Below are positions 42,587 through 57,704 of a stretch of 62,711 nt of DNA, in pieces. Source of the DNA: a virus; IMG/VR virus record IMGVR_UViG_3300020123_000077, positions 1 through 62,711 of that record; one strand, written 5' to 3'. A program made the position numbers and the translations under genes. The notes beneath the pieces were generated by a model. It was not told the DNA's origin, did not search any database, and saw only the letters and a list, made by a program, of their open reading frames with translations. Positions within the stretch are counted from its first letter, which is position 1. Each line of letters starts with the position of its first letter.

Positions 42587-42801
42587 TTACTTCTCCATTA
42601 ATTGAAGTTGACCAGCTACTCGCTACGTCTGGCATTGCTTGCAGATTCGTTCTGCCCGTGTTTCACGTGATTACAGCATCCGCTTTTGCTAGCCAACACT
42701 AGGCGACACTTCCAACCAGCTAACGAGGCCAATTGTTCGGTCGTAATCCAAAATGCCGCCAAGTGTTGGTTCTCCGGCCATACCGGAGATGTGAGAGTCA
42801 A
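42587..42801 (-). other. Short intergenic stretch with palindrome
   Basis: No gene with a good start is seen. A 61-codon frame here begins only at TTG without an RBS. A 7-bp palindrome TCTCCGG/CCGGAGA stands near 42772-42790, without a T tract, so it is not an intrinsic terminator. It could be a binding site or a transcript fold. Confidence 0.4.
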
Positions 42802-49260: not shown

Positions 49261-49692
49261 ATGCCGATAAAACCAGAAAACCGCGCACGCTATCCGAAAG
49301 ACTGGAAACAGATCGTTTCTAAGGTGCGTGAACGTTCTGGCGATTGCTGTGAGGGAAGTCCGGCATATCCTGATTGTAGGCGTCCAAACGGATCACTGCT
49401 GAACAAGCGAACTGGCGAGATAACAACTGACAGCATGATTGCGGAAGTTTGGCAACTTGTTGATGGTGATCGAGTGGTCAAGATTGTTTTGACTACAGCG
49501 CATTTAAATCATGTTCCTGAAGACTGCGATTTGGATAATTTGCGTCATTGGTGCCAGCGTTGTCATTTGCAATATGATGCGGCGCATCACGCGATAAATG
49601 CAAGAGCAACGCGTCAATCAAAGAAAGCGATTGGCGATTTGTTCGGTATGGAGCAGCAATCCTTAACTGTTGTGACGGGCGGAGAAAATTAG
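49261..49692 (+). CDS. HNH-type zinc endonuclease
   Basis: 143 residues. RSGDCCEG, DCRRPN, then TAHLNHVPEDCDLDNLRHWCQRCHLQYDAAHH show a zinc-knuckle HNH pattern (CxxC pairs plus the HLNH and HH). Proteins like this accompany phage replication genes. It may be a working phage nuclease, not a homing gene. Four small ORFs follow. Confidence 0.72.
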   Translation: MPIKPENRARYPKDWKQIVSKVRERSGDCCEGSPAYPDCRRPNGSLLNKRTGEITTDSMIAEVWQLVDGDRVVKIVLTTAHLNHVPEDCDLDNLRHWCQRCHLQYDAAHHAINARATRQSKKAIGDLFGMEQQSLTVVTGGEN

Positions 49693-50178: not shown

Positions 50179-50262
50179 ATGAAATATTCAAAAGTAATAT
50201 GGCAGTGGATTGAATATATTTTTTTATCAAGGGCAAGCAGAAAATGGAAGGGGATGAGATGA
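50179..50262 (+). CDS. Possible 27-residue peptide
   Basis: A short frame from ATG at 50179 to TGA at 50262. It overlaps the HNH start (ATGAGATGA). The product is basic with a Trp/Tyr/Phe-rich segment (VIWQWIEYIFL). It may be a remnant of the region displaced by the HNH insertion. Confidence 0.3.
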   Translation: MKYSKVIWQWIEYIFLSRASRKWKGMR

Positions 50263-50675
50263 GAGTGACGCAATGGTTTGGTGGAAATATTGCTGGAAGG
50301 GTGAATTCGAAAGGATATAGGATTATTAATTTTAAAGGCGTAAGGCATCGCGCTCATAGAATAATTTGGTATCTTTTTCATGGGTATTGGCCCTCTACAG
50401 ATATAGATCATATTGATGGTAATAGGGATAACAATAGAATTGAAAATTTGCGCGATATTGGCAAGTCTGGTAATAGCCAAAATATAAAGCGTGCAAGAGT
50501 TGATAACACAACAGGATTTTTGGGAGTTAGTCCATATGGCAAGAATGGTAAATTTAAATCTCACATATGCGTTAAAGGGCAGTCTATTCATATTGGAGTA
50601 TTTTCTACTGCTTTAGAGGCTCATCAAGCATATTTACAAGCAAAGCGAAAATTACATATAGGATGCACAATCTAA
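50259..50675 (+). CDS. HNH homing endonuclease with AP2-like end
   Basis: 138 residues from the ATG at 50259 (AAGGGG upstream). HRAHRIIWYLFHGYWPSTDIDHID, GNRDNNRIENLR give the HNH_3 core; the C-terminus has NTTGFLGVS, KSHICVKGQSIHIGVF and ALEAHQAYLQAKRKLH, an AP2-type DNA-binding domain. This domain pair is common in phage homing endonucleases. It is AT-rich compared with nearby genes. Confidence 0.85.
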   Translation: MRVTQWFGGNIAGRVNSKGYRIINFKGVRHRAHRIIWYLFHGYWPSTDIDHIDGNRDNNRIENLRDIGKSGNSQNIKRARVDNTTGFLGVSPYGKNGKFKSHICVKGQSIHIGVFSTALEAHQAYLQAKRKLHIGCTI

Positions 50676-50995: not shown

Positions 50996-51090
50996 CCACA
51001 ATAGCCATTGGCATTTCGATAGTTGTGGTTTGCTTTCTGTTTGCGATATTGGTTGGTAAGTTCATTGATGTCGGGACGGGACAAAAATGA
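50992..51090 (+). CDS. Small membrane peptide (32 residues)
   Basis: ATG at 50992 overlaps the stop of the gene before, and its TGA overlaps the start of the gene after. TIAIGISIVVVCFLFAILVG is a membrane helix, with a short Gly/Lys tail. Too short for usual gene finders but the double overlap is good evidence. Confidence 0.6.
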   Translation: MTTIAIGISIVVVCFLFAILVGKFIDVGTGQK

Positions 51091-51536
51091 GCGCTACAAA
51101 AAAGTCGCCGATGCGGATAAAGGCCGGTAATGTTCAACGTGAAACATTCATAGCGCCTGACGGACTTGATGTATGTATTGATTGCTGGGTATTGTGGATG
51201 GGGTCTGATGACAGGGACTTAAGTGCATCCAGGATGAAATTGGCTGGCGGAGATGAGTTACCGGATCGGGATGCAGACGGTAATATTATCAAGACCGCGT
51301 ATGAAAACAATCCATACGACGAGCAGTACAAGGCTGACATCAAGGTTGGAGAAGCGACTGGAACGATGATAAACGGCCTAAGAAAGCATCACAAATGGGC
51401 AATTCATAAGCGGGCCAATATTTCGACGGTATGGGCTTATCCAAATCTGGTGTTTTTTGATGTTTTGTTGGAAGCTGAGAAAGAATTGGAAATATTGTTG
51501 CGAAAAAATATTGACACCGCGCATAAGTTTTTGTAG
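51087..51536 (+). CDS. Probable late-gene regulator, unknown family
   Basis: 149 residues. Its N-terminal half is polar (DDRDLSASRMKLAGGDELPDRD) and the C-terminal part is helical with basic residues (MINGLRKHHKWAIHKRANIST, then EAEKELEILLRKN), a pattern like some phage transcription regulators. It is the last rightward gene before the folded RNA and terminator at 51.6-51.7 kb, where a lambda-like phage has its Q-type antiterminator. This function is inferred from position only. Confidence 0.45.
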   Translation: MSATKKSPMRIKAGNVQRETFIAPDGLDVCIDCWVLWMGSDDRDLSASRMKLAGGDELPDRDADGNIIKTAYENNPYDEQYKADIKVGEATGTMINGLRKHHKWAIHKRANISTVWAYPNLVFFDVLLEAEKELEILLRKNIDTAHKFL

Positions 51537-51583
51537 GATTCTGCCTAGTGGGTCATTTTTCTATGGAAAACCACAAAATATAG

Positions 51584-51662
51584 AGTATTACCGCCTTTAA
51601 TGACTCTTCGTAACGATCACCGAGGAGCGGCTTGCGCGGGCTTCATTAAAGGCGATAGTACT
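51584..51662 (+). ncRNA. Strongly folded RNA element at the start of the late region
   Basis: A long stem joins 51584-51603 with 51643-51662: twelve perfect pairs (CGCCTTTAATGA/TCATTAAAGGCG), one C/A mismatch, then seven more pairs with one G-U. Inside, CTCTTCG (51604-51610) pairs with CGAGGAG (51621-51627) around ten nt. It stands between the last early gene and an intrinsic terminator, as do put/nut/qut-type antitermination signals. No gene product is encoded here. Confidence 0.6.
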
Positions 51663-51698
51663 TTACCTCCTCCCTTCCATCTCCCCTGATGGTATTTA

Positions 51699-51732
51699 CC
51701 CACACTCCGCAAGGGCTGTGGGTTTTTCTTTT
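51699..51732 (+). terminator. Intrinsic terminator before late genes
   Basis: CCCACA (51699-51704) pairs with TGTGGG (51717-51722) around a 12-nt loop, followed by a strong T tract (TTTTTCTTTTT, 51723 onward). It lies only 13 bases before the first late ORF, so late genes need either antitermination or a start downstream of it. Confidence 0.75.
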
Positions 51733-51744
51733 TGAGAGTCCACT

Positions 51745-52032
51745 ATGGCAACTGCTTTTAGCAATTCGATGGAAGACGGCAACCAGTTAAATGACGAATC
51801 GCCAAATGCTGGTGCTAGCGATGATCGTCCGAGCAATATGGGATCACGAGACTTGCCAGTTACAGCGGGTAAAATCCCGGCGGCACCATCAGTAGATTAT
51901 CCACTCCCAATCGATCCACACTGCGCAGCAGAAGCAAGCGAAACCGATAGCGCTGAAGTATCCGACCTAGGACTCAACGAGCGTGTAGAAGTAGGAATCA
52001 GCGGCCCTCAATCCCAATATGGCTTGAAATAA
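51745..52032 (+). CDS. Small acidic protein, paralogue 1
   Basis: 95 residues, acidic and Ser/Asp/Pro-rich, probably disordered. It ends with SDLGLNERVEVGISGPQSQYGL. The same pattern (DFGLNENTEVSHGG...) occurs in the next gene, so the two look like tandem duplicates. It is the first gene of the late cluster. Unrecognised. Confidence 0.5.
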   Translation: MATAFSNSMEDGNQLNDESPNAGASDDRPSNMGSRDLPVTAGKIPAAPSVDYPLPIDPHCAAEASETDSAEVSDLGLNERVEVGISGPQSQYGLK

Positions 52033-52041
52033 GGAAAAATC

Positions 52042-52374
52042 ATGGCAAATCAAGAAATGAACAATGGCCTTAACGACAAACTCGATGCTTTCGAGCAATG
52101 CAATGTCGAAGCCGAATCCCGTGGTGGAGATGATCGCCCAATCCAGGACAATGGCATTCAAGGAAAATCCTTTAATGTCCAAGGCGCGATGACAACCAAT
52201 AGTTTCCCAACTATTCCGGATCAATTGGCTGGTGACGGTCAGGTAGATGATGACAACATCGCTGACTTTGGCTTAAACGAGAACACCGAAGTCTCGCACG
52301 GTGGCAGCGCGCAGGATTACGGTATTGCCGGGCCAGCCGCTGGCGGCGGAATTCGTAAAAACACGGTGCAATAA
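52042..52374 (+). CDS. Small acidic protein, paralogue 2
   Basis: 110 residues, acidic and low in hydrophobics; it shares the DDRP motif, and a DFGLNE segment near the end, with the previous gene. It has a clean RBS (AAGGAAAAATC before the ATG). Its GTG-rich tail (GPAAGGGIRKN) is like a linker. Unrecognised. Confidence 0.5.
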   Translation: MANQEMNNGLNDKLDAFEQCNVEAESRGGDDRPIQDNGIQGKSFNVQGAMTTNSFPTIPDQLAGDGQVDDDNIADFGLNENTEVSHGGSAQDYGIAGPAAGGGIRKNTVQ

Positions 52375-54070: not shown

Positions 54071-55588
54071 ATGGAAAAACTCACGCCTGAACTGATGGCA
54101 AAGGCTATCGAGTTCAAGACGAATTTCAGGTTCTACGCTCCAAGATGTTTAAAGGTTAAGCCTAAATCTGGTCATGTCGTGCCGTTCGTAATGAACCAGG
54201 CGCAACTTTACCTGCATGATCAGATAGAGCATCAACTCGCGACGACTGGAAAAGTCCGTGTGATTGTCCTCAAAGGGCGTCAACAGGGTATTTCTACATA
54301 CGTTGAGGCAAGGTTCTACTGGAAAACCAGTATGAACCGAGGCAAGAAGGCGTACATTATTACCCACTTGCAAGAAGCGACTGACAATCTGTTCGCAATG
54401 ACACAGCGATATCACGATCATTGCCCGCCTGCGATGAAGCCGCATACGAAGAATCAATCAGCTAAGGCGCTGACGTTTGACAGACTGGATTCTGAGTTCT
54501 CGGTGGCGACGGCTGGCAGTACAGGAACCGGGCGAGGCGGTACAGGACAGTATTTGCACGGGTCGGAAGTTGGATTTTGGGTCAATGCATCCGATCATAT
54601 GGCCGGTATCGGACAGACGATTCCGGAAGAAGACGGTACAGAGATCGTGTTGGAATCGACGGGAAATGGTATCGGTAACGAGTTTCACAGTCGCTGGCAA
54701 GACGCAGTCAGAGGTAAGTCGGACTACTTACCTGTGTTCATTCCATGGTTTTGGGATAGTGGTTATCAAACCCAGCCGCCAGAAGGTTGGTTTCCAGACC
54801 ACGAAGAAGACGAGTACATGGAGTTGTACGGACTGAATGTCGCGCAAGTCTATTGGCGTCACAAGAAAATAGCCAATGACTTCGGCGGCGAAACATCGTA
54901 TTTCGACCAGGAATATCCGGCAACAGCCGAGATGGCGTTTAGAAAACAGTCTGCCAACACGCTGTTTAGCCTCGCCAGGATAGAAAAAGCGATGGCAACA
55001 ACAGGTTTAGAGGCGGTCGGGCCGAAGATTATGGGCATTGACCCGGCTGAAAGCGATCTGGAATCAGGCGATGACACTGTTTTCGTGCTCAGACAAGGCC
55101 GCGTTGTCCATGAAGTCCTGCGTTATCACGGCAGAAACACGATGGAAACCGTCGGATTAGCCGCTCGAGCCATAGAAAGATGGCAACCTGACTACATTAA
55201 TGTCGATGCTGGCGGGCTTGGAAGCGGTGTGGCAGACCGACTAATCGAACTTGGGCACCCGGTAACGCGGATTTTGTTCGGTGAGCGTGCTTATGAGAAA
55301 GATATTTACGGACTCCGCAGGGATGAAATGTGGGGAGAGATGGCGAATTGGTTCAAAGACATCGTGCAACTACCGAACGATGAACCGATGAAAGCTGATC
55401 TCGCGACACCAATCAAGGATGAAGACAGTTCATTCCGTTTCAAATTAGAAAGTAAAAAATCCATGAAAAAACGCGGACTGAGCAGCCCTGACGCTGGTGA
55501 TGCATTGGCTTTGACATTTGCCATCCCGGCAGTGGCAGTCAAGTCACGTGTGACGCGCACAGAGCGTACGAATTGGCGCGTGATTTAA
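54071..55588 (+). CDS. Terminase large subunit
   Basis: 505 residues. ATPase: Walker A KGRQQGIST (about 68-76), a motif ESTGNGIGNE and HGSEVGFW (Walker B region). Nuclease: IMGIDPAESDLESGDD with the first Asp, YINVDAGGLGSGVADR with the second, and SSPDAGDALALTF with the third. It packages DNA through the portal and cuts it. It starts one base after the small subunit stop. Confidence 0.93.
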   Translation: MEKLTPELMAKAIEFKTNFRFYAPRCLKVKPKSGHVVPFVMNQAQLYLHDQIEHQLATTGKVRVIVLKGRQQGISTYVEARFYWKTSMNRGKKAYIITHLQEATDNLFAMTQRYHDHCPPAMKPHTKNQSAKALTFDRLDSEFSVATAGSTGTGRGGTGQYLHGSEVGFWVNASDHMAGIGQTIPEEDGTEIVLESTGNGIGNEFHSRWQDAVRGKSDYLPVFIPWFWDSGYQTQPPEGWFPDHEEDEYMELYGLNVAQVYWRHKKIANDFGGETSYFDQEYPATAEMAFRKQSANTLFSLARIEKAMATTGLEAVGPKIMGIDPAESDLESGDDTVFVLRQGRVVHEVLRYHGRNTMETVGLAARAIERWQPDYINVDAGGLGSGVADRLIELGHPVTRILFGERAYEKDIYGLRRDEMWGEMANWFKDIVQLPNDEPMKADLATPIKDEDSSFRFKLESKKSMKKRGLSSPDAGDALALTFAIPAVAVKSRVTRTERTNWRVI

Positions 55589-55589
55589 G

Positions 55590-57704
55590 ATGAGTATTGC
55601 TCAGTATTCTGATGATCAAGTCCTGAAGCTTGATCCGGAAGCGCTGTCTATCGATAAACTCGATGCGTTTCTGTACGAAATCAGGCTACAACCAAACTGG
55701 CGTCGTGAGTCAGACACGGATGCTGACTATTACGACGGCAATCAGTTGGATCACGAGACGTTAGATGACATGCAGCGTCTAGGTATGGCTCCGTTGATCC
55801 GTAATCTGATCCGGCCAACAATCGACGTTGCGTTGGGAATGGAAGCAAAAACCCGCTCAGATTGGCGCGTACAGGCCGATAACGACAAGGATCAAGACGT
55901 TGCAGAGGCTTTATCCGTCAAATTAAAAGAGGCGGAACGCGAGTCCAGAGCCGATAGAGCGTGTTCTGATGCTTATGCGCAGCAGTTAAAAGCCGGAATT
56001 GGCTGGGTTGAAGTATCGCGAGAGCTTGACCCATTCAAATATCCCTATAGGGTTTCAAGCGTTTCTCGCAGGGAAATATACTGGGATTGGCGTGCTAAGG
56101 AGCCAGACCTATCGGACGCTCGTTACTTGGTTCGACGCAGGTGGTTGGACTTGGACATTCTCGGTTTAATGTTTCCGGATCAGAAGGATTTGGTCGATTC
56201 GTTGGGCTTCTCCCGTGCGAATTGGGACACGCCGCTGACTGATTTTCCGTCCATCGGTGCCAGAACTTGGGTGATTGAGCGCGACGTCACGATTCCCGAG
56301 AGCGATTGGAGAGATTCGACCCGTAAGCGGTTATGTCTGTACGAGGTTTGGTATCGGGTTTGGAAGCGTGGTTATGTTATTCGGACGCCGGATGGCCGCA
56401 CGGTTGAAGTGGATTTGAATAATCCGAAGCATTCAGTCGCGATTGCCGCCGGTGCAGTCGATCCGATTCCGGCGATATTCCCGAAAATGCGGTTGAGCTG
56501 GTGGATTGGGCCGCACCGCATCGCCGATATGCCGACGCCTTACAAGCATAGTAATTTCCCGTATATTCCATTTTGGGGCTATCGCGAAGACCTCACGAAC
56601 ATTCCGTATGGACTGATTCGGTCGATGCGCAGCCCGCAGGACGAGATCAACGCACGTCTTTCGAAGATGATGTGGTTAATGTCGGCCAAGCGCGTGACGA
56701 TGTCAGGTGATGCGGTTGATGATGTAGACGAGGTGCGGCGTGAGATTGGTCGACCTGATGCATTGATTGTCCTTTCCAAGAATTTCAAGGAAGGCAAAGA
56801 CGTATTTAAGGTCGATGACCAGATGCAGCTCAGTCAGCAACAGTTCATGGTGCTGAAGGATGCGATTGATACTTTCCCGAAATCGGCAGGTATTTTCAAT
56901 GCATTGATGGGTGAATCGCAGCCAAGCGGCGCGAATTCCGGTGTGGCGATCAATAGTCTGGTCGAGCAGGGAACAACGACACTGGCTGAGATCAATGATA
57001 ACTACCGCTATGGTCGCCGAGCTGTTGGGCAGGCAATCGTTGAACTGATCCGTGAAGACCTTGGTTCAGAGCCTTCGGTAGTCGATGCTGATGCAAAGTT
57101 CGGCCAAGGCACCGAGAAGCGCCGGATCAATCTAAACTCGCCGAAGGTAGATAACGGTGTGCAGATGCTGGACAACGATGTACAGAGATCGCTCGTCAAA
57201 GTCAGCCTAGAAGATGTACCAAGTACGCCTTCTTACCGTGCGCAGCAGTTGATGATGATGACTGAGATGACCAAGTCATTGCCGCCGAATATACAGGCGT
57301 TTGTCGTGCCGTTCATCCTTGAATCCAGTGAAATGCCGCACCGCAGAGAGGTTGCTGATCAGGTACGAAAAGCACTTGGCATGGGTGAGAACAACGGTCA
57401 GACCTTCACCAAAGAGCAGGTTGACCAGATGGTTCAACAGAAGGTCGAAGAAGCAATGCAGCAGTCTGGACTACAGATTAAACAGCAAGAATTGCAGGTC
57501 AAGGCCAAGCATATCGATAACCAGCATGAGATAGCTACACAGAAATTATCGATAGAAGCATTCAACGCCGAGTCGCAGCGTCTAACGGCAGAAGCAGGAA
57601 GCAAGGGTATTTATGCAGGCATCGATATGAAGACGCTGGATGTCTTGCTGACACATGACCAGGCTTTAATTCAGGATCAATCATCACAACCACAGGAGCA
57701 GTAA
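55590..57704 (+). CDS. Portal protein (P22-like)
   Basis: 704 residues. N-terminal pattern YYDGNQLDHETLDDMQRLGM, NLIRPTIDVALGMEA, KTRSDWRV, and the middle VSSVSRREIYWDWRAKEPDLSDARY are typical of P22-type portals. C-terminal coiled coil (about 600-690, Gln/Lys/Glu-rich) may form the barrel. It is the ring through which DNA enters and leaves the capsid. Position after the terminase and before the scaffold agrees. Confidence 0.9.
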   Translation: MSIAQYSDDQVLKLDPEALSIDKLDAFLYEIRLQPNWRRESDTDADYYDGNQLDHETLDDMQRLGMAPLIRNLIRPTIDVALGMEAKTRSDWRVQADNDKDQDVAEALSVKLKEAERESRADRACSDAYAQQLKAGIGWVEVSRELDPFKYPYRVSSVSRREIYWDWRAKEPDLSDARYLVRRRWLDLDILGLMFPDQKDLVDSLGFSRANWDTPLTDFPSIGARTWVIERDVTIPESDWRDSTRKRLCLYEVWYRVWKRGYVIRTPDGRTVEVDLNNPKHSVAIAAGAVDPIPAIFPKMRLSWWIGPHRIADMPTPYKHSNFPYIPFWGYREDLTNIPYGLIRSMRSPQDEINARLSKMMWLMSAKRVTMSGDAVDDVDEVRREIGRPDALIVLSKNFKEGKDVFKVDDQMQLSQQQFMVLKDAIDTFPKSAGIFNALMGESQPSGANSGVAINSLVEQGTTTLAEINDNYRYGRRAVGQAIVELIREDLGSEPSVVDADAKFGQGTEKRRINLNSPKVDNGVQMLDNDVQRSLVKVSLEDVPSTPSYRAQQLMMMTEMTKSLPPNIQAFVVPFILESSEMPHRREVADQVRKALGMGENNGQTFTKEQVDQMVQQKVEEAMQQSGLQIKQQELQVKAKHIDNQHEIATQKLSIEAFNAESQRLTAEAGSKGIYAGIDMKTLDVLLTHDQALIQDQSSQPQEQ

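Follow-up and report, generated by a model that had tools for sequence, protein, structure and literature searches.

In the window (the whole stretch of 62,711 nt analysed here, positions 1 to 62,711 of the IMG/VR virus record IMGVR_UViG_3300020123_000077) we observed a region that probably represents late-gene control of the lambda type, that is, Q-type antitermination with a promoter, a leader of about 180 nt, a terminator and the late genes. We suggest the following course of events: the host RNA polymerase would start from a promoter lying over the end of the gene at 51087 and produce the leader RNA, which would stop at an intrinsic terminator just 5' of the late operon. An antiterminator, most likely the protein encoded by this gene, would load on the polymerase at or near the late promoter, and the polymerase so loaded would resist the terminator, allowing for expression of the late genes. 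The early rightward transcript carrying 51087 would likewise end at this terminator. On this reading the region is a switch of a known kind, belonging to a divergent lineage of phages and distinguished by an unusually large, structured leader.

The late promoter (pR'-like) is TTGACA-17 nt-TAGGAT at 51511-51539 on the plus strand. It matches the sigma-70 consensus at 10 of 12 positions, is the top-scoring match within 48-56 kb and overlaps the final codons of ORF 51087-51536, with TTGACA 25 nt 5' of the stop codon. The preliminary description of this DNA overlooked it; it lies directly 5' of the folded RNA discussed below. Transcription would start near 51546, 7 nt past the -10 box. With the promoter placed in this way over the 3' end of the gene before it, the promoter, leader, terminator and late genes are ordered as in the lambda Q-pR'-tR' region. 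In the phage 21 the QBE consists of direct repeats in the promoter; no direct repeats of at least 5 bp of this type were found in the promoter region of the window, single-site elements being invisible to such a search. Lambdoid late regions also have a -10-like sigma-dependent pause element just past the start site, and on reading the sequence past the putative start site of the window we saw no clear -10-like pause hexamer. A Q protein recognises a site within the late promoter, is loaded there on polymerase paused by sigma and then prevents the formation of terminator hairpins (PMC6606751), and both Q and AlpA systems have a binding site inside the promoter plus a terminator downstream (PMC6606751, PMC9371919). 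The anatomy of the window fits this scheme, Q-binding repeats and the pause element not being recognised.

The intrinsic terminator (tR'-like; 51698-51733, plus strand) consists of ACCCACA-CTCCGCAAGGGC-TGTGGGT, a hairpin of -14.3 kcal/mol, followed by the T-tract TTTTCTTTTT. It lies 11-13 bases before the first late ORF (51745-52032, plus strand), in agreement with the preliminary description, which had placed a terminator directly before this ORF. An ORF of the same family directly follows the leader in the related loci L006 and L018 (alignment A1). The late operon is marked by the genes of the terminase large subunit (54071-55588, plus strand; phrog_2, E 2e-24; PF17289, above the cut-off) and of a P22-like portal (55590-57704, plus strand; PF16510, E 1e-110). 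The region upstream of 51087, which includes primosomal/O-like, NinB and RusA genes, is organised as a lambdoid right arm, so that the window has the order of replication genes, Q-position gene, promoter, leader, terminator and late genes. Among other features of this area, the first late ORF and its neighbour at 52042-52374 are small paralogs with 29% identity (A1), having relatives in L004, L006 and L018, and near the Q position there are two HNH endonuclease genes (50244-50675 and 49261-49692), one of them with an AP2-like domain, which are likely free-standing homing endonucleases.

The terminator could also be an insulator only, ending the early transcript, with the late genes expressed from another promoter or through an activator. 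The locus L004, with a promoter-like TTGACA-18-TACAAT 3' of its terminator, agrees with this explanation. In the window, however, the strong site precedes the terminator, and from the terminator to 53.9 kb there are no promoter-like matches of at least 9/12 on the plus strand, so that a strong promoter downstream of the terminator, named in the preliminary description as a competing explanation of late transcription, was not found in this range. The same order of elements in six other genomes also speaks against mere insulation, and we consider it improbable.

As relatives of the window DNA or of the 51087 protein were found neither in phage records nor in viral contigs, related loci were fetched through the terminase and portal; these did not contain close relatives of the 51087 protein either. 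A search of Burkholderiales genomes yielded the terminase only in one already known genome. In seven genomes the preceding gene has a perfect TTGACA at its end, after which a leader and an intrinsic terminator follow: the window, L006, L054, L116, L018 (the end of the L005 contig), EBPR podovirus 1 and MW202481. Relative to the preceding stop codon, TTGACA is situated between -25 and +43 in all seven and between -3 and +43 in the six relatives, and chance alone would place a perfect TTGACA in 3% of 80-nt stretches drawn at random from the window. The -10 boxes of the relatives, in the above order, are TAGAAT, TATTTT, TAATTT, TATTTT, CAGAAT and TATAAT. The leader length ranges from 36 to 178 nt over the seven genomes and from 36 to 74 nt in the six relatives. 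Late genes follow in at least six of the seven (all but MW202481), with terS, terL and the portal after the terminator in EBPR podovirus 1; in MW202481 the gene downstream of the terminator encodes a hypothetical protein, and the late operon is not confirmed. An intrinsic terminator 6-27 nt 5' of the first late ORF is also found in many further relatives; L114 has no such terminator, and the arrangement is missing there.

In five of the six other genomes the gene preceding the promoter is a relative of antitermination Q. One is so annotated in GenBank: in MW202481, the stop codon of the gene for 'phage antitermination protein Q' is overlapped by a perfect TTGACA-18-TATAAT. The genes in L054, L116 and L018 are mutually related (49-73% identity to L054). 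The L116 protein matches the 'antitermination-like protein' of Methylophilales phage Venkman (tblastn, 3e-4), which in turn matches the MW202481 Q (9e-29) and gp41 of EBPR podovirus 1 (2e-7) and has a weak similarity to PF06530, below the cut-off (E 0.0086). The remaining gene, that of L006, has a product of 272 aa without a clear resemblance to Q (E 0.12). The EBPR podovirus 1 gp41 gene (L244, 2366-2836) is annotated as hypothetical and has its own promoter-terminator unit 5' of terS/terL; its similarity and position point to a Q-type antiterminator. The small ORFs that precede the late promoter of L034, L035, L039 and L080 are 57-82% identical to each other and do not resemble the Q profile, and they were left out of the Q evidence. 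Two of these loci carry a second type of leader before the late genes (L034, 3837-3947; L035, 3737-3850), with two hairpins and then a terminator; one hairpin keeps the loop TCGCT while the stem pairs vary on both sides, and these leaders possibly form a covarying RNA family.

The gene at 51087-51536 (plus strand) encodes a 149-aa protein, a probable divergent Q-type antiterminator judging from its position directly 5' of the late promoter and its weak similarity to Q. It had no match in Pfam or PHROGs; PF06530 (Phage_antitermQ) in particular did not reach the gathering cut-off and gave no match even at E 10. The known Q families are not similar to each other in sequence, nor is AlpA to 21Q (PMC9371919); hence, the missing match to PF06530 does not exclude the Q function. 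With a Q-like profile of six proteins (L054, L116, L018, Venkman, the MW202481 Q and EBPR podovirus 1 gp41) the 51087 protein ranked first among the 74 ORFs of the window (hmmsearch E 0.015, below every curated cut-off), as it did with a four-protein profile, and comparison with the six-protein profile by hhalign gave P 0.004 at a probability of 8%. Its W-x2-WM motif (CIDCWVLWM) matches ILDDWALWM of an annotated antitermination Q. AlphaFold models, made from the sequence alone or with seven distant rows added, were unusable (mean pLDDT 36 and 45). The similarity to Q, being weak when taken alone, becomes useful in combination with the position. The suggestion of the preliminary description that this protein might act here is favoured by both.

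The leader transcript (about 180 nt, predicted to span 51546-51730 on the plus strand) folds considerably better than expected, with the MFE of -62.1 kcal/mol against -43.4 +/- 3.8 in dinucleotide shuffles (z -4.9; none of 200 shuffles equalled it), and the segment 51561-51670 (plus strand) is the fourth of 3132 stretches by folding surplus when both strands of the whole window are considered. The main element is a rod-shaped RNA at 51581-51665 (plus strand; MFE -35.3 kcal/mol when folded alone). In its outer stem, 51581-51590 pairs with 51656-51665 (10 bp), followed by a C.A mismatch and 12 perfect pairs (CGCCTTTAATGA / TCATTAAAGGCG); the interior is a three-way junction with hairpins of 7 bp and 5 bp. 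Thus, the 20-position stem of the preliminary description is present with its one mismatch and is slightly longer (22 pairs), whereas two inner hairpins, forming the junction, were found instead of a single one. The top folding surplus in the window belongs to another element, a highly structured intergenic RNA of the leftward operon (42660-42800, minus strand; MFE -57, z -5.7), which has no match in Rfam or in phages.

A strong fold between promoter and terminator, as proposed earlier, would agree with put-type antitermination, in which the rod RNA alone would bind RNA polymerase and render it resistant to the terminator without the help of a protein. No copies of the rod were found, however, in the fetched loci (about 2.5 Mb), in phages or in viral contigs, and it is absent from every relative examined, including all those with the same promoter-terminator plan, whose leaders have short hairpins only. 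Among the phages examined, the rod appears to be specific to this one. The put RNAs in the literature comprise two stem-loops in about 70 nt and belong to early operons (PMC9378689), and an unconditional RNA antiterminator would keep the late genes permanently on. Because the rod lacks conservation and is unlike put in form and place, this mechanism is disfavoured, and we regard it as very improbable. Hardly more credible is a functional cis-acting rod that makes the polymerase resist the terminator, either by itself or with the help of the 51087 protein, as a put-like element at the late operon in addition to Q-type control. Of the put/qut antitermination that had been proposed, the qut form, with a protein at the late promoter, is therefore well supported, as the order recurs in relatives, and the put form, with RNA alone, is not, the rod being absent in relatives and the anatomy being unlike that of HK022 put.

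The leader could also control termination as an attenuator made of RNA only, with GUGGGU of the leader (51548-51553) pairing with the left arm of the terminator, ACCCAC (51698-51703). For transcripts that end at 51704-51720 this pairing is predicted to be optimal, but 106 of 500 shuffled 5' segments (21%) reach as many pairs, which is not better than chance, and reading the leaders of relatives revealed no equivalent. This makes the attenuator extremely unlikely.

Under Q-type control the large rod would be a lineage-specific elaboration of the leader, distinct from the antiterminator itself, and would probably protect or shape the RNA that ends at the terminator, acting as a dsRNA processing site or a stable small RNA. 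Between the rod and the terminator there is a stretch unpaired in the MFE fold, CCTCCTCCCTT (51666-51676, plus strand), with an anti-Shine-Dalgarno motif. The leader might be mainly a small-RNA gene, producing a stable regulator of about 180 nt, in which the unpaired CCUCCUCCC pairs with Shine-Dalgarno sequences and the rod serves as a 5' stabiliser; CCUCCUCCC is an anti-SD loop motif of sRNAs (PMC3927594), and StxS is an sRNA derived from a terminated pR'-tR' transcript (PMC7873438). Given the known motif and the StxS precedent, a small-RNA side function is plausible, and it would not conflict with Q control, as the case of StxS, made between pR' and tR', illustrates.

The unit of promoter, structure and terminator spans about 180 nt, and the leader of L006 has the 11-mer CCTCCTCCCTT as well, likewise unpaired and situated in the same place, between the stem and the terminator; this sharing is beyond chance, a common word as long having arisen in 7 of 2000 shuffled pairs. 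L006 is also the closest in layout, with a 15-pair stem (z -3.4), ACCTCCTCCTCCCTT and the terminator. Full-length Rfam matches, to RF02278 (a Betaproteobacteria toxic sRNA; 19.8 bits) and SorX (20.8 bits), are all far below the gathering scores (50 for RF02278), so that no match at the gathering level was obtained. The motif is missing from the leaders of L018, L054 and L116, and a scan of viral contigs for a promoter with CCTCCTCCC returned mostly tRNA-like stretches or unrelated loci. Thus, although the stretch shared with L006 hints at a small-RNA role, this is speculative, and as the main function of the leader we consider it unlikely. A family of anti-SD leaders was discarded, as the pattern scan of viral contigs yielded L006 as the sole syntenic match. 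At an unrelated locus, six phage or prophage contigs (L194, L199, L212, L225, L238 and L239) repeatedly show a unit of about 110 nt, composed of a promoter, CCTCCTCCC and a terminator, that looks like a small RNA gene.

The preferred reading, Q-type late control, would extend the lambda Q-pR'-tR' plan to an environmental phage lineage with P22-like portals, whose antiterminators seem too divergent for curated family models. It also suggests a rule for finding them: a stop codon overlapped or closely trailed by TTGACA, then a short leader, a terminator and late genes. The leaders, from 36 to 178 nt, may serve as a natural series for probing roles of leader RNA beyond being stopped.

As in the lambdoid Q-pR'-tR' regions (lambda, 21, 82), in the window a Q-position gene ends on a strong sigma-70 promoter, followed by a short leader, an intrinsic terminator and the late genes, with a lambdoid right arm upstream. 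The window differs in that its Q-position protein scores below every family cut-off, QBE repeats and a -10-like pause element are not recognisable, the leader bears a large rod with a three-way junction, and the late operon opens with small ORFs and terminase rather than with lysis genes. The perfect TTGACA at a gene end, the leader and the terminator are common to the window, MW202481 (Manatee Spring podovirus) and EBPR podovirus 1; in the two podoviruses this gene encodes a Q relative. They have no detectable DNA similarity to the window, and their leaders of 46-72 nt have a hairpin and no rod.

The AlpA/alpB system of Pseudomonas aeruginosa, another comparable case, comprises a Q-like protein, a promoter-embedded site and an intrinsic terminator downstream (PMC9371919); it controls a bacterial regulon, and its binding element is known, whereas none was recognised in the window. 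In HK022 put, a structured RNA is also transcribed between phage promoter and terminators, but there it comprises about 70 nt with two stem-loops, lies in the early operons downstream of PL and PR and needs no phage protein, while in the window it is one non-conserved 85-nt rod with a three-way junction, preceding the terminase and portal genes. Finally, StxS of Stx phages is, like the predicted leader, a terminated pR'-tR' transcript; the sRNA function has been shown for StxS, while the leader of the window is a candidate sRNA.
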